A stretch of DNA of 64,000 bases from Capniomyces stellatus (taxonomy: Eukaryota; Kickxellomycota; Harpellomycetes; Harpellales; Legeriomycetaceae). Positions 25,848 to 54,218 of this stretch are shown here, piece after piece (positions within the stretch are counted from its first letter, which is position 1; each line of letters starts with the position of its first letter). The DNA is taken from assembly GCA_001661515.1 (NCBI GenBank), contig LUVW01000019.1, positions 62,001 through 126,000 of the forward strand, in the 5' to 3' direction. Under the pieces are notes generated by a model that made no database searches, had not been told where the DNA came from, and was given only the letters and a program-made list of their open reading frames with translations. A program made the position numbers and the translations under genes.

Positions 25848-26954
25848 ATGAAAAGCCCACTCCGCACAAAAAACGAATATCTAACAGTAGGGATTCTTTC
25901 ACTATTAGCAACTGGCTACAGTGCCTCCACAGAGTCCATCAACAGTTCGATATCACAACCATCTTCAGCCGATGCCTCACTGATATCAAGTAACTCTACC
26001 AGACTACCAGGCAACGCTCGAATAATCAATGGCTCACCCGCGAAAATAGAAGAATTCCCATTTGCAGTATTCGTTTACGTCGACTTGGGAGTTGACGGCG
26101 AAGCTTGTGCTGGAGCATTGCTATCAGACACAGTTATTGTAACTGCTGGTCATTGTCTTGTATCTGGTAGTGGTTTACACAAACCATCAATAATCAAGGT
26201 ATCTGCTGGAAGTGCAAACAACATCCAAGGCAACAACAAAAGGTACACCGCCAAGCAGATAATTACCCACCCCAAGTTTAGTCTAACAACTCTGAAGAAC
26301 GACATTGGGCTAATTATTCTTTCTACACCCATTCCTAAAAGTGTTGCAGTTCCTGTGCCTATATTTGACGGCAAAATGGTTGACAACATGTCCGTTACTG
26401 CAGCTGGCTGGGGTGTTACTAAAAATGGGAAAGATGCAATTGTTGCACCTACTCTAAACCAAGTACAATTGGATGTATCATCCTCACCAAATTGCAAAGC
26501 CTTAAATGTATATTGGGTAAACAACAACGACTATAGCGTTTGTACGCTTAACAAGAACAGTCAAGATACATGTTATGGCGACTCTGGTGGACCTTTGACA
26601 TACTCGAGCAATGGAAAAACTACACTTGTTGGTGTCACAAGCATGGGTAACGCTCCTGGTGATGCTGAGCATCCCGACTGCGGATTAACAAATGGCGTTG
26701 CTTATTATACTCGCGTATTCCACTTTATTGATTGGATTTCCTCCACTGCTCGTATCGATAAAAATACTCTTTTGAATATCCCTACTAGTTTGCAGAACTC
26801 GACGTTCACAGACAACACCTTCAATAAAGATGGTCCTGGAAAACAAATGAACAATACCTCGGATCTAAACGCAAACTCAAGTCACAACCCCATACATCTA
26901 TCTACTTCTCTCTATATACTTTTTGCATTTACTTTATACACTGCCTTGGCATAA
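25848..26954 (+). CDS. Trypsin-like serine protease with GPI-type tail
   Basis: Secreted S1-family endopeptidase, single exon, 368 residues. Residues 1-26 look like a signal peptide (KNEYLTVGILSLLATGYSAS). A Ser-rich propeptide runs to Arg58, where cleavage would free the mature IINGSPA N-terminus. Catalytic triad: His102 in TAGHC, Asp152 in NDIGLI and Ser246 in GDSGGP. Asp240, six residues before the catalytic Ser, is the trypsin specificity residue, so cleavage after Lys/Arg is expected. After the protease domain (to about 300) comes a 50-residue Asn/Ser/Thr-rich linker and a C-terminal hydrophobic run (STSLYILFAFTLYTALA) resembling a GPI attachment signal. Wall- or membrane-anchored trypsins fit an animal- or insect-associated fungus, but the lifestyle is inference. 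Confidence 0.93.
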   Translation: MKSPLRTKNEYLTVGILSLLATGYSASTESINSSISQPSSADASLISSNSTRLPGNARIINGSPAKIEEFPFAVFVYVDLGVDGEACAGALLSDTVIVTAGHCLVSGSGLHKPSIIKVSAGSANNIQGNNKRYTAKQIITHPKFSLTTLKNDIGLIILSTPIPKSVAVPVPIFDGKMVDNMSVTAAGWGVTKNGKDAIVAPTLNQVQLDVSSSPNCKALNVYWVNNNDYSVCTLNKNSQDTCYGDSGGPLTYSSNGKTTLVGVTSMGNAPGDAEHPDCGLTNGVAYYTRVFHFIDWISSTARIDKNTLLNIPTSLQNSTFTDNTFNKDGPGKQMNNTSDLNANSSHNPIHLSTSLYILFAFTLYTALA

Positions 26955-29278
26955 CATTTCACATAGAATTATTGTCCTTATTACAATCTCAAACATTACC
27001 GTTTTTTCTATTCGCAATAAGGTTTATAAGCCTATTTTATGGTTATTGGCTCTAATTTACACAGAATTATTGCTAGTTTTAGCAAGGTAGCTTAGTTTTG
27101 ACTATTCGTGGTTTGTAATTTAGAAGCTAGTGGCTGTTGAGCGATAACCATAATTGAATATACGAGTCAGAATATTTTTTTTTATTGACAATGAATATTT
27201 TTTTGAAGAGATTCATAAGTGATCCAAAAGCTAAAGCTTAGCCATTTCTCCCATTTTAATAAAGGGTTATGATTGTTTATTGAATTACGGGTTTTTGTGA
27301 TTATCCAATGTCACTTTTTACAATAGTGGGGTTTCTTTGCTGAATAAATAATTCTGTTTCCAGGAGTTTTTTTATCAAAACATTTGAATCGACATCTTTA
27401 GAAATAAACCATCTCTTTTACCAGACTAGCTATTTATCTTTGCTCCATAACACTTGTACAAATACTAGGTTATGTTGCTGCTGCTTTGAAACATTGAGCT
27501 GATATACACTCTTACATATTACGGCAGATTTTTTTTTTAAAAAAAACGTAAGTATGGCAGAAAATTTAGTGCTGCAAGGGTAGGTTATTGAGCACGGTAT
27601 TATCGCTTGTATCACTATACACAGCATATATTGGGGAATTGGAGGTGTGTGTGTGTGTGTGTGATTTAAGCTACTGGTTGGCTTTGCTAGATTGAGCAGG
27701 TAGAGTTTGCGTATAAAATGGTAGTCTATCCATTGATTATTAATAGGTTAACTATCTATGCTGAATAACTGAAACTTCCAGTTGAGAGTTTGAAAAAAAA
27801 AATGCAGGAGACTAATAGTTTTACTTGAAGGTGCATTATGCAAGGATTCCAAGTTACATGATGTACATTTCGATACCTGATTATCTCACAACATTCACTA
27901 TTTTATTTGTTCTTTGTATTTATCCCTGATTTTAAAACATCGTGTCTAAAATAAGGTTTGATTAAGGTGGCTTCCTTTGCTTTTTAATTGGGTGTATCGC
28001 CAAAACCATTTTTGAAGATAATTGCATGCATTCGTGGAGAATCTATAAATAAATGTGCCAAGCCTTTAAACAAATTTCAAATTGAGAACCTTCAGCATTT
28101 TTGATTTTGATTTTGATTTATTAGGCGTTTTGAACATTTTACACTTTCAATTACTTTTTTTTCAATTGCAATTTAAAAAAAAAAACTCTATTTCATTTGG
28201 TTATTTTTTTATATCTACATTTTTCTTAATTTTTAAACGTTCAAAAAAGGGAATGTTTTTTAAAACGGGCTTTACTATTGGTCAGATACTAACGGATTAT
28301 TCAGCAATTGGCTTTTTGGGATCTCTTAGTTTCTGGAGTACAAAAAGCACAAGTAAAAAAAGTTTAAACGAGTCTGTACAGGTAGATGATGTTGGCAAGG
28401 TGGCCTATTGCAAGCCACGAGCCATTACATGATGCGGCTCACATCAACGAAGTGAAATATAGATACATGTCTATTTTTGATGTTTAAAAACCAGACAGTA
28501 GTGCAAACCTTTGGCTTTTAAAAACAGTATGGTTTTAAAGGCTGTTTATAAATCTAGAAAAAAAGGGAAATCCTATCAGACCGAAGAAATAACACCCAAG
28601 ACACTAATATATCTCAACCACCAATGCTGCGTTTAGTAAAGAGCATAAAGCGATGATTTCAAATCGTCGGATTGGTTCTAATTAAACATGTTTCAGTATT
28701 ATTAGGTTTTGCGGGAAGCAGAAAATAAAACAAAAAGATCACAAATGTTAATTTAAGGTATTATGTGTACAAAACCGAGTTTAAACACAAAGCGCATGTT
28801 CCAAACATACAACGCAAAGGTGTCTGTAAAAGCGGTTGTTGGCTAAATCGACTATCCTAGATTCAGTGTCCATATTTGCTTTACTGGTTTTAAAACCAAC
28901 ACCGCAAAGTACTTTACTACACGGTTTCCTAAATAAAACTAACAAGTAAAACAGCTTTATAGATGGTAGATGCTGTGTCAAATATGAACACTTTATGGCG
29001 GGGAAGAGAGACAGTATATTGCTAAGAGTACATTTACAAGATATTATAGTAAAAATAATGCCTGGTGTTGATTAGTAAGTTTTTTTTATTGTACTTGCAT
29101 ATTTTTTTTAGGGCAATGTTAATTAATGGTAATCGCGGACTTGATAATCACTTTGGCTATAAATACACGACTGATCCAGACTTTAAAAAAAATACAAACA
29201 CAAACTGATATATTCTTCTTCAAGATCTTTTCGCTTAACTACCAACAATAATAACATCAAGAGAAAAGCATACTTCAG
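26955..29278. other. Gene-poor spacer
   Basis: No supported gene. A GT microsatellite lies at 27645-27663. A 116-codon frame at 28082-28432 and a 66-codon minus frame at 28781-28981 have no ATG start and no clear family. The final 120 bases are the likely leader of the GH17-like gene. Confidence 0.5.
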
Positions 29279-32201
29279 ATGAGGCTTCTGTACTTACTTG
29301 CCAACGCACTCAGCGTGACTTTGGCAGCATCAACTTTCAGGGCATTGAGTTACAATCCCAAGAGAGGCGATGGAACTTGTCCAACAGTTGATGACGTCCG
29401 TTCAGATTTGAATAGTTTAAAAAACTATACTGATACAATTAGAATATACAGTCTTAAAGATTGTAACCAGGGTGAACCAGTGCTCGAGGCAATCAAAGAT
29501 ACTGATTGGAAGATTTACCTGGGCATATGGGTAGAGGAGGGTGACACTAGCTTTAATGCCGATAGAGAGGAGCTTATTAGACTTAGTAAAATGTATGACC
29601 TAAACAAAAATGTTAAGGGGCTTATTGTGGGAAGTGGGTCCTATACTAGACGCGAGCAGACTTTAGAGGAAACCATAGATAAAATCAAAAACATTAAGGA
29701 GCTTCTTAAAGAATTAGGCATTGACTCTGTTCCTGTGACTACCTCAGAGACGTTCTATAACTACTTACCACCACTTATAGATGCGGTAGATATGATCATG
29801 GTAGATGGTTATCCATTCTGGGAAGGTGTAGACATAAACAGTGCCGGTAGATTAATGCATCAGCATATAGATGGTGTCAAATCACGAGCCAATGGAAAGA
29901 AAGTAATGGTAGGATCTACCGGTTGGCCATCAGTAGGAAATTCGGTTGGAGCTGCTGTTCCAGGACTTGAGAACTCATTCAAGTACATGAGAGACTTTAT
30001 CTGCGAAGCGCATAAGAAAGATGTGGATTACTTGTACTTTTCAACAAACGATGCACCATGGAAGGCAATTGAACAATACGATCCATATCACGCTGAGGCA
30101 CATTTTGGTGTGCTTAACGAAGACTTTAGCCCCAAATATCCAGGAGACGACTGGTTTAACTGTGACGATTTTGAATCTTTCATCCCACCTGTACAAACAA
30201 TTCCACCTGTACAAACAATCCCACCTGTTGAATCTATAGAAGTGGTTTCTACGATATTATCAGAAGGGGAAATAAGACCAGTAGAGTCAGGGTTTATAGG
30301 AACAGCAACATCTGAGGAAGAGTCATTTGTTTTGTCTGATGTGATACCAAGCAAAGATATTAATATAGAAATAGTAGACAAACCAACAGGAACAGACGAA
30401 TCAGACTTAACTTTGACCAGAACAGGCGAAGACATAATTGTTATAACAGATGCAGATCCAACTAAAAACGTGATTATAGAAATAGTAACTGATATAACAG
30501 ATACCAACGGGCCAATTTCGGGCATACAAGTAGAAACCGGACTAACTGATAACACCTTGCAAACATTAACTGACGTTTTACCAAGCAAGGAGATCATTAT
30601 AGAAATCAGACCAGATGAACCAACCCCAACTGAAACAGGAGCCCCAGAAACAGGAACTGAAGGTGCAGGAGGAGAAACAGGCGCCCCAGGAACAGGAACT
30701 GAAGGTGCAGGAGGAGAAACAGGTGCCCCAGGAACAGGAACAGAAGGTGCAGGAGGAGAAACAGGCGCCCCAGGAACAGGAACTGAAGGTGCAGGAGGAG
30801 AAACAGGTGCCCCAGGAACAGGAACTGAAGGTGCAGGAGGAGAAACAGGTGCCCCAGGAACAGGAACAGAAGGTGCAGGAGGAGAAACAGGCGCCCCAGG
30901 AACAGGAACTGAAGGTGCAGGAGGAGAAACAGGTGCCCCAGGAACAGGAACTGAAGGTGCAGGAGGAGAAACAGGTGCCCCAGGAACAGGAACTGAAGGT
31001 GCAGGAGGAGAAACAGGTGCCCCAGGAACAGGAACTGAAGGTGCAGGAGGAGAAACAGGTGCCCCAGGAACAGGAACTGAAGGTGCAGGAGCTGGAACTG
31101 AAGGTGCAGGAGGAGAAACAGGTGCCCCAGGAACAGGAACTGAAGGTGCAGGAGGAGAAACAGGTGCCCCAGGAACAGGAACAGAAGGTGCAGGAGCTGG
31201 AACTGAAGGTGCAGGAGGAGAAACAGGTGCCCCAGGAACAGGAACTGAAGGTGCAGGAGNNNNNNNNNNNNNNAGGAGGAGAAACAGGTGCCCCAGGAAC
31301 AGGAACTGAAGGTGCAGGAGGAGAAACAGGTGCCCCAGGAACAGGAACTGAAGGTGTAGGAGGAGAAACAGGTGCCCCAGGAACAGGAACAGAAGGTGCA
31401 GGAGGAGAAACAGGTGCCCCAGGAACAGGAACTGAAGGTGCAGGAGCTGGAACTGAAGGTGCAGGAGGAGAAACAGGCGCCCCAGGAACAGGAACTGAAG
31501 GTGCAGGAGCTGGAACTGAAGGTGTAGGAGGAGAAACAGGCGCCCCAGGAACAGGAACAGAAGGTGCAGGAGCTGGAACTGAAGGTGCAGGAGGAGAAAC
31601 AGGTGCCCCAGGAACAGGAACTGAAGGTGCAGGAGCTGGAACTGAAGGTGCAGGAGGAGAAACAGGCGCCCCAGGAACAGGAACTGAAGGTGCAGGAGCT
31701 GGAACTGAAGGTGTAGGAGGAGAAACAGGCGCCCCAGGAACAGGAACAGAAGGTGCAGGAGCTGGAACTGAAGGTGCAGGAGGAGAAACAGGTGCCCCAG
31801 GAACAGGAACTGAAGGTGTAGGAGGAGAAACAGGTGCCCCAGGAACAGGAACTGAAGGTGCAGGAGGAGAAACAGGTGCCCCAGGAACAGGAACTGAAAA
31901 TCCTATTTCAGTAACTTTATCAGATGTACTAACAAGTAAAGATGTAATAATTGAAATAATTCCTGTAACTAGCTCTCCAGCTTCAGAAAGTGAGGGAACT
32001 GCCACCACAAGTACACCAGAAATGTGCCAACCAAATAACTTAGCGTCATACTCTGAAATGGTTGAAGAGTTAAGGACCATAACGGCTGCCACTAGTCTCC
32101 CATTGACCAGATTGTATCACTTTTTGCCAACAGAGTTTGATGATGCAGTTTTGGTACTGAACCCAACGCAAACGGTCAACGAAGTTGTAGCAACAGCTTA
32201 A
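29279..32201 (+). CDS. GH17-fold wall protein, catalytic residues missing, repeat stalk
   Basis: Residues 1-17 are a signal peptide. Residues about 20-295 match the fungal GH17 beta-1,3-glucanase fold: [64 protein letters not shown] and [15 protein letters not shown]17 enzymes need two glutamates. Here the acid site reads VGSGSYTR (Gly120 where family members have Glu), and the nucleophile site reads GSTGWPS (Ser213 instead of Glu). The usual DEPWK is also DAPWK. It is therefore probably a non-catalytic glucan-binding protein. Then come a Pro/Val/Ile linker and a tandem array of [14 protein letters not shown] units. A copy of an IIEI-type motif and a short unique C-terminus end at 32201. An assembly gap at 31260-31273 breaks the frame, so true length is unknown. 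No GPI signal is obvious. Confidence 0.85.
30639..31899 (+). repeat. Coding tandem array, 42- and 63-bp units
   Basis: Units code [14 protein letters not shown] (14 residues, 42 bp) or the same with a GAGAGTE insertion (21 residues, 63 bp). Left of the gap 42-bp units predominate; right of it the 63-bp form is frequent. Units are almost identical, with silent C/T changes (GGC/GGT Gly) and A/T changes (aca/act), plus a GVG variant, implying recent expansion or homogenisation. Being read on the plus strand in one frame on each side of the gap, it is a Thr/Gly/Glu/Pro stalk suited to O-glycosylation. Confidence 0.95.
31260..31273. other. Assembly gap (14 N) inside the tandem array
   Basis: Fourteen unknown bases interrupt the array. 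The coding frame before and after differs, but both sides encode the same repeat, so the gap length is arbitrary and the shift is an assembly artefact, not a mutation. Confidence 0.98.
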
Positions 32202-40214: not shown

Positions 40215-40846
40215 ATGAAGACATCCGGACTTTTTGTAGTAGCACTTTCAATGGTTGCCTCAACCTTGGCACAAGAATGCAACAGACTTGATTTCTGTTC
40301 AGGTAGCAGCGAACTTTCAAAGTGCGTAGACGGAAAAACCGTTACCACACCATGTCCAGCCGGTACATCTTGCCAGTATAATAGCGACAATGTTGGTGCT
40401 TGCCTTAACGTACCAGTAACAAGTGCAAATGGAGCCGCTGGCTCAGGCTCAAGCACAAATGGAACCACTGAATCAGGCTCAAGCACAAATGGAACCACTG
40501 GCTCAGGCTCAAGCACAAATGGAACCACTGAATCAGGCTCAAGCACAAATGGAACCACTGGCTCAGGCTCAAGCACAAATGGAACCACTGAATCAGGCTC
40601 AAGCACAAATGGAACCACTGGNCTGGCTCAGGCTCAAGCACAAATGGAACCACTGAATCAGGCTCAAGCACAAATGGAACCACTGAATCAGGCTCAAGCA
40701 CAAATGGAACCACTGAATCAGGCTCAAGCACAAATGGAACCACTGGATCAAACTCAACAAAGACTGGAGGCAGCACATCTTTCACCGTTTCTAAATTTAC
40801 ATTAGTATCAACATTCATTGCTGGTATTGCCATGTACACACTCTAA
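40215..40846 (+). CDS. Small secreted Cys-rich repeat protein, CBM19-like, GPI-tailed
   Basis: Residues 1-20 are a signal peptide (MKTSGLFVVALSMVASTLAQ). Next comes a 45-residue six-Cys module: ECNRLDFC, LSKCVDGK, TPCPAGTSCQY and GACL. This resembles fungal CBM19 chitin-binding modules (the CP-GT-C core), from memory. Then about ten copies of a 10-residue unit, GSGSSTNGTT or ESGSSTNGTT, each with an N-glycosylation sequon. A hydrophobic end (FTLVSTFIAGIAMYTL) after a Gly/Ser/Thr stretch looks like a GPI signal. A single N at 40622 sits in the repeat and the frame shifts there. Both sides encode the same repeat, so this is a collapsed repeat or join error, and the gene is probably intact in the organism. 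A wall or mucin-like surface role is inferred. Confidence 0.8.
40437..40749 (+). repeat. 30-bp coding tandem repeat with single-N join
   Basis: About ten 30-bp units (ggctcaagcacaaatggaac core). Units alternate GSG and ESG before the N at 40622, and are all ESG after it until the last unit. Copy number here should not be trusted. Confidence 0.9.
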
Positions 40847-51125: not shown

Positions 51126-54100
51126 TCAAGTATTGATACCAAAGTCGTACATACTCTCCTTGTTTACTATTGTGCTGGCAACAGAACTGGTATTGCTTGT
51201 ATTGCTGTCTTTTGAATAGAGATTGTTGTAGTTGAAGTTGATGTAGTTTAGTTTTTTTTCCAGGATGTTCCGCGTAACTATTAAAGACTTTCTGTTGTAT
51301 GCAGCATCAGTTAATACATTCTCGTTTTTTGGGCAAGTGGTTACATCGAGTGGGAAAGTTTCTGAAACCTGTGTTAACTCTGAGCCGGTGGGACCACTGG
51401 CTGTTGCTATTTGTGGAGACTCAACTAATGTTGCTATTTGTGAAGACACATCTACTGTTAGGTTTTTGGAGGGCTTCGCTTGCATTTGTGTGGCTGAGGA
51501 GTTGGCCAAAGTCTCCAAACTTTGGCCCAGCATTGGTAGTGTACTTTGATCAGGAAGAGCGGGATGTTTGTAAATCCCTAAGCCGTTAATTGAGCGGTTG
51601 TTGTATTTTGCAGCAAGTCTCAAAGACTTTGGGCGAGGAGTCAGTTTCTTGAACACGTTTTGGCTAAGAGGTAGAAGCCCACCGCTTTCTAGTTGCGAGA
51701 AAACAGTGCTCCCAGATTCGCTTACACTTCTATCAGTGAAATTGCTTTTACTGTGTTTATCAGCTGTTTGTGACGATATCCTGTTCAAAAAGGCAACGTT
51801 GTTAAATACAGAGGTCTCAGACGCCGTCTTGATGGTATTCTGTATCTGGCTTAGCCTTAGGTATATATCGTTTGATGCTGCCTCAATCCTGTGGTTGGTT
51901 TCATTGATAGCGCTTATCTCCCGGATATCATCTATGCTGGTTGTTGAATACAAGGCTTTGCTATGGCTTGGGAGGTCCGCTGTTTGGTCTCGGTAGTCAT
52001 ACTCGGCGTTTCTGTACTGGTCGCACATCTTTGTAAGGTACTCAATCTGCTGAGCCTGTTTGTCTATTTTTTCCTGACTAATTGCTTTGATGTTGATGAT
52101 TTCTTTTTCCAACGTTTTTACATCGCGCATGCACCTTGAATGGCTCACTAACTCCAGCTGCTCTGACTGAGACTTGTATTGGGATATCAGCCTCTTTAGC
52201 TCAGAGTTCTGATCCAAAAGCCTTTTGTTCTGCAACCTTAGATCATCGATGATCTCCTTATGCCTGATATTTTTGCTACGTTCTGGCATAGAACCTGACC
52301 CTTGGCTAGTTTCAGTTATCTCCTCAAAACCAATACCATTCTCGTTTTTTGATATAATCGTGCTCACCATAGCTTCCAGCTCACTGATTGTGCTTAAATC
52401 TGACTTTTCAGACAGTTGGCTTTCTTTTGAACTTGTTCTCTTTAGAAAATCGTCTGTGTCCCCCAATGTTTTTCGCCTTTGGAAAGGCATGAACATTGTT
52501 GGTTTTAAGCCATTTCCGTTTTTCACAACCTTTACATTTCTCTTTTCATCTCGGATATGCATTTCGCTAAACTTTAAATGATCTATCAAGTCAACAAGTG
52601 ATTTGTTCTTTCTGCTTTCCTGAACCAAATCTGAGTCGCTGGTTGTGTTAAGATTGTATATCCCGCTTTTTAGCTCGTTTTTCCCTCTGCCTTTACCCAT
52701 GTTGGCTAGTCTCAAGTTACTCATGAGTATACTCAAACTATTGTCCACGCCCTTGCCAAGAGCGTCAGCCTCGGAAGCATAATCAGCGCGCGTTTCTTTC
52801 AACCTCAGCTTGGGGTTTCTTTCCGTTTTTTCTCTACCTTTGTTGGGTGTAGCCCATTCGCTTTTGATATTAGCGCCTTCACCTATACTGAGTTTTCTTA
52901 AAGTAAAGTCTTCAAATTTACTGCCTATAAACTTTCCTTCTGTAGAATAGGACTGTTGCTCGTAGAACTCGGCACTGTTCCTTATCAGTCGTTTTGAGTA
53001 GTTTTCGTTTTCTTTGATAAACCTAAACCGGTCGTTTTTAGAGAATAATTTGTCGGTTTTCTCTTTTCGAATAACTGGAAGCAAGCCATCTTCAATTGTT
53101 TTTTTCTCAGAATAATCCGTTGACCTGCTTTTACCCCTGATGGTTCCCTTGCTTGCTTTATACCTCACGGATGGCTCTGTACATCTTCTCTCTAACCCAA
53201 TGTTGAAACTAACAGCCGGTTTGTTCCTTGGTTCTAATACCCGTGTTTTTGACCATCTTATTCCTGTTGGCTTTTCAACCGTTTTTTTCGCCAATAAGTT
53301 GTCGATTGTCTCAATTCTTTTAGTATACTTATCCTTGTCACTCGGCGCGTTAAAATCATAGTCTATTGCTTCAATACCCCCTAAGCCAATATCAAACAAA
53401 AATGGCGGTGAACTTGGCTCCTTTATTTCGCTGACTATAGTGCTTTTTGCGACTTTTTCCTCTGTGGTAAACATCATCTCTTTGTTCTTTTTCAAAGTTT
53501 GGTACTTGAACATTTCAAAGTTGTTCTCCCAAGTGTCGGGTGCGTTTTCCAGGTCTTGTTCATTGTAATGCGTACTGCTTATTCCCTTCAAATCAGTATG
53601 CTTGAGCTTTTTGCCACTTTTGTTATTACCGTTGCCTTTTTTTAGCCTGTGCAATTTATCGCCTCCAAACAGCTCAAACTTGAACTTTTTGTTATTTTTC
53701 ACCTCGGTCTTGTTTTCGTGTGTGGGAAGCCTCTCGCTTTCGTCTATGTACACGTAGTTTTCGTCTGTGTATTTGTGTTTTGACGTGTTCGTATTTAAGC
53801 TATCCATGTCGTCCTTATTCACTGGATTTCTTTCTGATACTATATAAATCCCGCTGGTTTCGCTTGTTCTTGCTGTCTTTTTTTCTAGTTCCAGTAGCTC
53901 AAAGTCGCTAGCGTTGCTATCAAAAGACAATTTGGAATGCATTTTTGACTCCTTAGGGGTGATATTTGCTTTTGAGTTCGCGACTTTTGCAAAACCCTTC
54001 TCTTCATTGCCTCTTTTGGTTTTAAAGCCAAGCATCGTATTGTTCGTGTCTTCTATAATATTCTTTTCTTGCACACCGCTGCTATAGAATGGCTCTATAT

Positions 54101-54218
54101 CTTCGAAGTTTAGTCTGTTTATTTTACGAAGGTCGCTACCTGTGCTGACCGAGTTTAAACTGATAAACTCTCTGTTACTAAACACAGTTTCGGGGTTTTG
54201 GACAATAATTGTTGACAT
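51126..54218 (-). CDS. Large coiled-coil protein of unknown function
   Basis: A single uninterrupted minus-strand frame of 1030 codons from ATG at 54218. It is not recognised. Residues 1-640 are hydrophilic, Lys/Asn/Ser/Glu-rich and probably disordered, with many basic clusters (for example KKNKEMMF, KTRVLEPRNKP, SKGTIRGKSRS). Residues about 670-770 form a probable coiled coil (HKEIIDDLRLQNKRLLDQNS, then ISQYKSQSEQLELV and TLEKEIINIKAISQEKIDKQ). A second helical stretch lies near 790-830. The C-terminal 200 residues are Ser/Thr/Asn-rich. No transmembrane segment or enzyme motif is visible. The layout (disordered basic region plus central coiled coil) resembles cytoskeletal, spindle-pole or cell-polarity scaffolds, but that is only an analogy. 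No introns are needed. Confidence 0.85.
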   Translation of the reverse strand: MSTIIVQNPETVFSNREFISLNSVSTGSDLRKINRLNFEDIEPFYSSGVQEKNIIEDTNNTMLGFKTKRGNEEKGFAKVANSKANITPKESKMHSKLSFDSNASDFELLELEKKTARTSETSGIYIVSERNPVNKDDMDSLNTNTSKHKYTDENYVYIDESERLPTHENKTEVKNNKKFKFELFGGDKLHRLKKGNGNNKSGKKLKHTDLKGISSTHYNEQDLENAPDTWENNFEMFKYQTLKKNKEMMFTTEEKVAKSTIVSEIKEPSSPPFLFDIGLGGIEAIDYDFNAPSDKDKYTKRIETIDNLLAKKTVEKPTGIRWSKTRVLEPRNKPAVSFNIGLERRCTEPSVRYKASKGTIRGKSRSTDYSEKKTIEDGLLPVIRKEKTDKLFSKNDRFRFIKENENYSKRLIRNSAEFYEQQSYSTEGKFIGSKFEDFTLRKLSIGEGANIKSEWATPNKGREKTERNPKLRLKETRADYASEADALGKGVDNSLSILMSNLRLANMGKGRGKNELKSGIYNLNTTSDSDLVQESRKNKSLVDLIDHLKFSEMHIRDEKRNVKVVKNGNGLKPTMFMPFQRRKTLGDTDDFLKRTSSKESQLSEKSDLSTISELEAMVSTIISKNENGIGFEEITETSQGSGSMPERSKNIRHKEIIDDLRLQNKRLLDQNSELKRLISQYKSQSEQLELVSHSRCMRDVKTLEKEIINIKAISQEKIDKQAQQIEYLTKMCDQYRNAEYDYRDQTADLPSHSKALYSTTSIDDIREISAINETNHRIEAASNDIYLRLSQIQNTIKTASETSVFNNVAFLNRISSQTADKHSKSNFTDRSVSESGSTVFSQLESGGLLPLSQNVFKKLTPRPKSLRLAAKYNNRSINGLGIYKHPALPDQSTLPMLGQSLETLANSSATQMQAKPSKNLTVDVSSQIATLVESPQIATASGPTGSELTQVSETFPLDVTTCPKNENVLTDAAYNRKSLIVTRNILEKKLNYINFNYNNLYSKDSNTSNTSSVASTIVNKESMYDFGINT

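Follow-up and report, generated by a model that had tools for sequence, protein, structure and literature searches.

The yeast Bgl2p/Scw wall glucanosyltransferases and RmBgt17A, a beta-1,3-glucanosyltransferase of Rhizomucor miehei (structures 4wtp, 4wtr, and 4wts), are the closest described systems to the gene reported here. All belong to the GH17 family, and the Bgl2p/Scw enzymes are fungal-wall proteins. The gene was found in a 64,000-base stretch of DNA from Capniomyces stellatus (contig LUVW01000019.1, positions 62,001 to 126,000), hereafter called the window, which has a GC content of 36.9%. This fungus is a stonefly gut symbiont (PMC4974312), and harpellalean genomes have low GC and include a 25-28 Mb class (PMC5954228). 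The gene occupies 2923 bases on the plus strand (29279..32201, start codon at 29279) and is best explained as encoding a pseudo-glucanosyltransferase, probably secreted, from the Bgl2/RmBgt17A branch of GH17. Its domain has the same fold as RmBgt17A throughout, with 34% identity, but carries Gly, Thr, and Ser in place of Glu99, Tyr102, and Glu189 and is followed by a long repeat stalk.

Fungal adhesins of the Als/Flo type likewise combine a folded N-terminal domain with a long tandem-repeat stalk, and they have a signal peptide, which is probable in the window protein; their ligand domain, however, is not a hydrolase and their Ser/Thr-rich stalks are anchored by glycosylphosphatidylinositol (GPI). 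Animal immune glucan receptors have the GH16 fold, as opposed to the GH17 fold considered here. These receptors descend from beta-1,3-glucanases, have lost at least one catalytic residue, and recognise beta-1,3-glucan (PMC2375007); the best-studied among them have a separate N-terminal glucan-binding domain (PMC13251364). A hydrolase has also become a sugar binder through lost catalysis in the chitinase-like YKL-39, one of the GH18 pseudoglycosidases (PMC7828330), which differs from the window protein in family, ligand, and organism. In RmBgt17A, Glu99 is the proton donor and Glu189 the nucleophile, and Ala at Tyr102, Trp157, or Glu158 abolishes transfer (PMC11005184). The same paper gives the nucleophile of its own bacterial enzyme as both 223 and 233. 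Bgl2p is active and has Glu124 and Glu233 (PMC11677059), whereas the window protein lacks both.

Both catalytic glutamates of the GH17 domain are replaced

The domain belongs to GH17 by descent, with similarity to RmBgt17A over residues 17-286 (E 4e-49), and matches the Pfam family Glyco_hydro_17 (PF00332) with 44.7 bits (cut-off 28.2), the best stretch being residues 208-287. An AlphaFold2 model of residues 20-298, based on a 15-row alignment, has a mean predicted local distance difference test score (pLDDT) of 93. The model is a (beta/alpha)8 barrel that superposes over the entire domain on solved GH17 structures, and RmBgt17A was ranked first by Foldseek and VIA-align.

The original prediction, made from the sequence alone, located the two lost Glu residues at Gly120 and Ser213, and both assignments hold. 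The codon of Gly120 is GGG and lies opposite the Glu of VGSE in RmBgt17A; that of Ser213 is TCT and lies opposite the Glu of ETGWPS. The domain thus lacks the Glu donor after strand 4 and the Glu nucleophile of the ETGWP motif at strand 7 that characterise active GH17 enzymes. Alignments by phmmer to chains of the Protein Data Bank (4wtp, E 5.8e-49; 4wtr, E 4.2e-49) cover residues 17-286 and are gapless near both sites; 4wtr itself has Ala at the nucleophile, and 4wtp has Glu there. MAFFT alignment with the 12 GH17 frames of the same genome places both sites in identical columns, and misalignment of the active site is ruled out by the two methods. A structure-based alignment had been proposed as a possible refutation. 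As far as this check was run, the modelled fold superposes on RmBgt17A and the sequence alignments have no gaps around both sites, in agreement with the prediction; the absence of a conserved Glu nearby is read from the sequence columns.

No base of the TCT codon matches either Glu codon, and the paralogous gene C31 encodes the same residues with GGA and TCC. Chance does not account for such a loss, and sequencing error was rejected as its cause. A third loss, of the Glu in the DEPWK motif, had been cited as well, wrongly as evidence: Ala occupies this position in 9 of the 12 frames of the genome, including the intact C2, C39, C6a, and C45, and in one of six intact Kickxellomycotina proteins (Zancudomyces), and C27, which lacks the catalytic Glu, retains the DEPWK Glu. 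New acidic residues common to the window protein and C31 occur in eight columns. Only one of them, Asp176 at the end of strand 6, was judged by eye to adjoin cleft residues.

Half of the GH17 copies in the genome lack both residues

The genome (24,510,316 bases, 59 contigs) contains 12 GH17 matches to the window domain, comprising all 12 candidates. Both Glu are absent from six copies, and a single loss occurs in none. The donor/nucleophile pairs of the pseudo copies are Gly/Ser in the window copy (C11) and C31, Asp/Gln in C5a and C5b, His/Gln in C6c, and Asn/Asp in C27. The pair is Glu/Glu in C2, C39, C6a, C6b, C45, and C22, which are called intact by sequence; RmBgt17A is the sole row known to have been assayed. 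Inactivity is less firmly predicted for C5a, C5b, and C27, because an acidic residue remains at one of their catalytic places.

A repetitive tail is not peculiar to dead copies, since the intact C2 also bears a Thr-rich repeat. C5a and C5b carry separate repeats of 42 and 36 bases, those of C27 are weaker, C6c consists of 291 residues without a stalk, and a repeat search of the coding part of C31 found none. The 42-base repeat of C5a, a tandem pseudo-GH17 gene (region L016 947-2248), is interrupted by an N gap beyond which the frame apparently changes, as in the window gene. C27 (region L010 864-2948, minus strand) encodes a GH17 relative of 694 residues in which both Glu and most of the glucan contacts are gone but the DEPW Glu persists; its function may differ from that of the other copies.

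The best five matches in the first protein-database search were all to Kickxellomycotina: Zancudomyces (52%), Smittium (50%), two Coemansia, and Mycoemilia. Six Kickxellomycotina database proteins have Glu at both places, as do P0008, P0009, P0010, and P0013 in pairwise BLASTP alignments. P0012 has the nucleophile Glu; its donor place is aligned to Gly, yet a VGNE motif is visible by eye, and the Gly was taken as an alignment slip.

Selection on the domain and history of the loss

The domains of the window gene and C31 differ by 0.91-1.28 in synonymous divergence (dS) and 0.12-0.14 in nonsynonymous divergence (dN), with a dN/dS ratio (omega) of 0.10-0.15 by four methods. The intact pair C2/C39 has an omega of 0.12-0.22 by three methods at a dS of 1.5-2.7. 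In most of the remaining pairs, synonymous divergence is at or close to saturation and little informative, and two NG86 runs on such pairs were saturated. These values, together with the loss shared by the diverged C31 and by half of the paralogues, support more strongly than the sequence alone could the earlier claim that both Glu disappeared from a preserved scaffold under selection, which is the pattern of a pseudoglycosidase. The Gly/Ser pair common to the window gene and C31 suggests that the loss preceded their duplication; if it did, the dead domain would have been under constraint ever since.

A tree calculated without three catalytic columns, and also without C45 and C22, unites five of the six pseudo copies (88/94). 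The sixth, C6c, is placed elsewhere, on a long branch close to RmBgt17A, and this join was marked as a possible artefact. A single origin of the loss was recovered in 3% of 200 bootstrap trees, with a P value of 0.095 in the approximately unbiased test (p-AU), and is thus not rejected. In the other tree, of all 19 rows, five pseudo copies group with values of 81/95, and one origin appears in 16% of 200 bootstrap trees. The best trees require two changes; either one or two losses fit, two somewhat better.

The substrate cleft is mostly retained

Sixteen contact positions, including Tyr102, were taken from the text of PMC11005184, Val10 having been dropped from 17 positions besides the two Glu. 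Alike residues occupy 13 of them in the window protein, C31, and C5b, 12 in C5a, 10 in C6c, and 5 in C27. In the intact paralogues the count is 13 or 14 for the four close ones, 12 for C45, and 11 for C22. The ligand cleft is retained by this measure in the window protein and C31, with 8 positions identical, and not in C27. The RmBgt17A residues kept in the window protein are Trp65, Arg103, Trp157, Glu158, Phe230, and Glu242. The acceptor platform Tyr102/Trp157/Glu158 is incomplete: Trp181 and Glu182 are retained, and Tyr102 is replaced by Thr123. The loss of Tyr102 alone says little, because Leu is found there in three distant relatives with both Glu (P0008, P0009, and P0013).

Thirty-seven columns are invariant among 11 intact sequences (four from the genome, six from Kickxellomycotina, and RmBgt17A; C45 and C22, of a distant branch, were left out). 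The window protein and C31 each keep 31 of these columns, C5b and C6c 29, C5a 28, and C27 20. Those altered in all six pseudo copies are Asn7, Glu99, Tyr102, and Glu189. When each sequence was left out in turn, the ten Kickxellomycotina sequences kept between 37/37 and 37/40 columns and RmBgt17A 37/65, so the count of 37 depends on the inclusion of RmBgt17A. In the window protein, the pattern is one of removed chemistry and a chain-holding groove that mostly remains. The pattern of C27 is one of broader decay or a new function.

Repeat stalk and C-terminal segment

The features of the gene are listed in the table below. The original prediction treated 29279-32201 as a single unit, but one continuous frame is not present. 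In the assembly as given, the frame that opens at 29279 is closed by a stop at 31309, and a second frame, which begins within the repeat, ends at 32201. The break coincides with 14 N and would reflect a gap whose length was estimated rather than a frameshift present in nature; because of this gap, the copy number and frame of the stalk are uncertain. A 500-residue frame on the minus strand (30578-32080) spans the repeat and was dismissed as an artefact.

Features of the pseudo-GH17 gene in the window
Feature	Position	Strand	Remarks
TATA-box-like TATAAATA	29158..29165	+	About 115 bases 5' of the start codon; by eye, consensus resemblance only
Probable signal peptide (residues 1 to ~19)	29279..29335	+	Hydrophobic N-terminus, by eye
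GH17 barrel domain without either catalytic Glu (residues 20-298)	29336..30172	+	
Gly120 at proton-donor place (RmBgt17A Glu99)	29636..29638	+	phmmer, MAFFT
Thr123 at the place of RmBgt17A Tyr102	29645..29647	+	+1 sugar platform, needed for RmBgt17A transglycosylation (PMC11005184)
Asp176	29804..29806	+	Acid where 11/11 intact enzymes have Asn or His; common to C31
Ser213 at nucleophile place (RmBgt17A Glu189)	29915..29917	+	phmmer, MAFFT
Linker: Pro-Pro-Val-Gln-Thr-Ile repeat and three LSDVLPSKDIIIEI-like motif copies	30179..30631	+	Copies at 30332-30373, 30443-30484, 30566-30607; motif by eye
Tandem-repeat stalk	30632..31898	+	Acidic; 14- and 21-residue periods, AGTEGAG inserts
14-N assembly gap within stalk	31260..31273		Disrupts assembled frame
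C-terminal segment: fourth motif copy, ~60-residue tail, stop codon	31899..32201	+	Motif copy 31917-31958; stop codon 32199-32201

The near-identical repeat noted earlier is confirmed, with periods of 42 and 63 bases. All 33 exact genome matches of one repeat pattern are at the window locus. The stalk pieces flanking the gap contain 25 matches to GAP-type units and 8 to short AGTEG-type units. The 417 stalk residues comprise Gly 177, Thr 86, Ala 63, Glu 61, Pro 26, and Val 4, with a net charge of -61. At the DNA level, 24 matched units can be sorted into five types, which points to a recent expansion of the stalk. To our knowledge, Bgl2p has no tandem-repeat stalk of this kind. Of the features typical of adhesins, the tandem repeat is present and the signal peptide was judged by eye only; unlike Als/Flo stalks, that of the window protein contains no Ser, and neither a GPI-anchor signal nor a hydrophobic C-terminal end was seen by eye.

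Four copies of a beta-rich, LSDVLxSKDxIIEI-like motif, recognised by eye, are located on either side of the stalk (30332-30607 and 31917-31958). Such strings resemble aggregation-prone adhesin segments, and the motifs are possibly self-associating. The linker has no other genome match at E 0.001. The last ~60 residues match only C31 in the genome (45%), and the C-terminal segment has no Pfam match or recognised domain. No NCBIfam match was obtained.

Three further frames of the window were recorded. A plus-strand frame of 196 residues (40215-40805) contains roughly 11 tandem copies of a 30-base unit (NGTTESGSS-like by eye), with one N at 40622 and no Pfam match, and resembles a further mucin-like repeat protein. 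A minus-strand frame of 1030 residues (51126-54218) also lacks a Pfam match and has a 27-base repeat near 51402. The plus-strand frame 25848-26954 encodes a Trypsin-family serine protease (Pfam E 1.6e-37), of interest in an insect-gut fungus.

Proposed function and alternatives

A glucan-binding pseudoenzyme is the likeliest reading of the window protein, and we hold it with moderate confidence. The protein is probably secreted. With both carboxylates of the double-displacement reaction and the acceptor-holding Tyr of RmBgt17A replaced, it would neither cut nor join beta-1,3-glucan. The largely preserved cleft makes binding of beta-glucan plausible. With most of this cleft, which cradles the chain at subsites -3 to +2, still in place, the protein would most likely serve as a lectin that recognises beta-1,3-glucan in the wall of the fungus itself. 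The acidic Gly/Thr/Ala/Glu/Pro repeat may form an extended spacer or coat, perhaps O-mannosylated, and the C-terminal tail common to C31 may be an attachment or partner-binding piece. The protein may act as a surface adhesin, as the original prediction suggested.

Several observations weigh against glucan binding. The best contrary datum concerns yeast Bgl2p, whose active centre itself helps to retain it in glucan: its nucleophile mutant E233A was strongly weakened in wall attachment, though attachment was not abolished (PMC11677059), so a dead GH17 domain may bind less tightly. The long tail of the window protein could supply its own attachment; the model of the C-terminal tail is of low confidence (pLDDT 52). 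Asn7 is lost along with Tyr102, and binding of the +1 sugar may be weak. Of the 16 cleft positions, the four close intact paralogues have 10-11 identical, compared with 8 for the window protein and for C31. Glucan binding should not be assumed for all six pseudo copies, because only 5 (C27) and 10 (C6c) of the 16 cleft positions are alike. The double loss appears here in one genome. None of 11 distinct database proteins is a pseudo relative, in searches (8, 7, and 5 matches) that used shared 5-residue words and limited lengths, the first scoring only the candidates with most shared words, and that do not imply absence elsewhere.

The presence of six intact and six pseudo copies in one genome would also suit a helper or regulator, a dead domain that pairs or competes with intact GH17 transferases and so tunes wall remodelling, with the C31-shared tail as a possible partner-binding piece. 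We consider this unlikely: the long repeat suggests placement at the surface, and a competitor would still bind glucan, which overlaps with the lectin role. The protein may instead face the host, as a decoy or shield that covers fungal beta-glucan or absorbs arthropod gut glucanases, inhibitors, or recognition proteins. The long acidic repeat is consistent with this idea, as are best database matches that include Zancudomyces and Smittium, Harpellales that are insect-gut commensals (PMC5954228), but these features equally fit a plain wall protein, and the idea seems improbable.

It is very unlikely that the domain is still an enzyme, with residual or altered activity that arises from substrate assistance or from a carboxylate that has moved (Asp176 or a different cleft acid). 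Catalytic residues may have migrated in some pseudoenzymes (PMC10211241), selection is strong, and Asp176 stands at the end of strand 6 in the window protein and C31 where intact enzymes have Asn or His. However, neither protein has a carboxylate at the canonical places, no other of the eight new-acid columns lies near the cleft by eye, and the Tyr102 required for transfer by RmBgt17A (PMC11005184) is lost too. The remaining alternative, a duplicate that is decaying towards a pseudogene, is scarcely credible. The catalytic residues are gone, the repeat has expanded, the assembled frame is broken, and C27 has lost cleft residues as well; against this, the GH17 frame is open, omega is 0.10-0.15 at a dS of ~1 between two copies with a shared loss, the frame break coincides with the N gap, and a TATA-like element lies upstream.

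Implications

Pseudoglycosidases are already known (PMC7828330), and in other families glycosidases have become lectins. No natural GH17 case was found in the literature searched, which included the accessible parts of PMC4176579, PMC9099982, PMC10237404, and PMC13251364 and covered few subscription papers. In a survey of early-diverging fungi, proteins were left out when their catalytic residues carried invalid substitutions (PMC8778642), and sets of pseudo-GH17 proteins can therefore be filtered out unseen.

A wider proposal, which we regard as rather unlikely, is that half of a GH17 wall-transferase family turned into non-catalytic glucan lectins in one or two steps, several of them with repeat stalks, and that these lectins form a coat that conceals the fungus's own beta-1,3-glucan from host glucan receptors. 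If this were true, the host receptors being likewise dead glucanases, a dead glucanase would stand on both sides of the symbiosis. The intact and dead copies within a single genome offer a clean comparison of the cleft residues that are enough for a non-catalytic domain to hold beta-1,3-glucan. The same comparison bears on the catalytic Glu as a wall anchor of GH17 proteins, a role hinted at by Bgl2p E233A.
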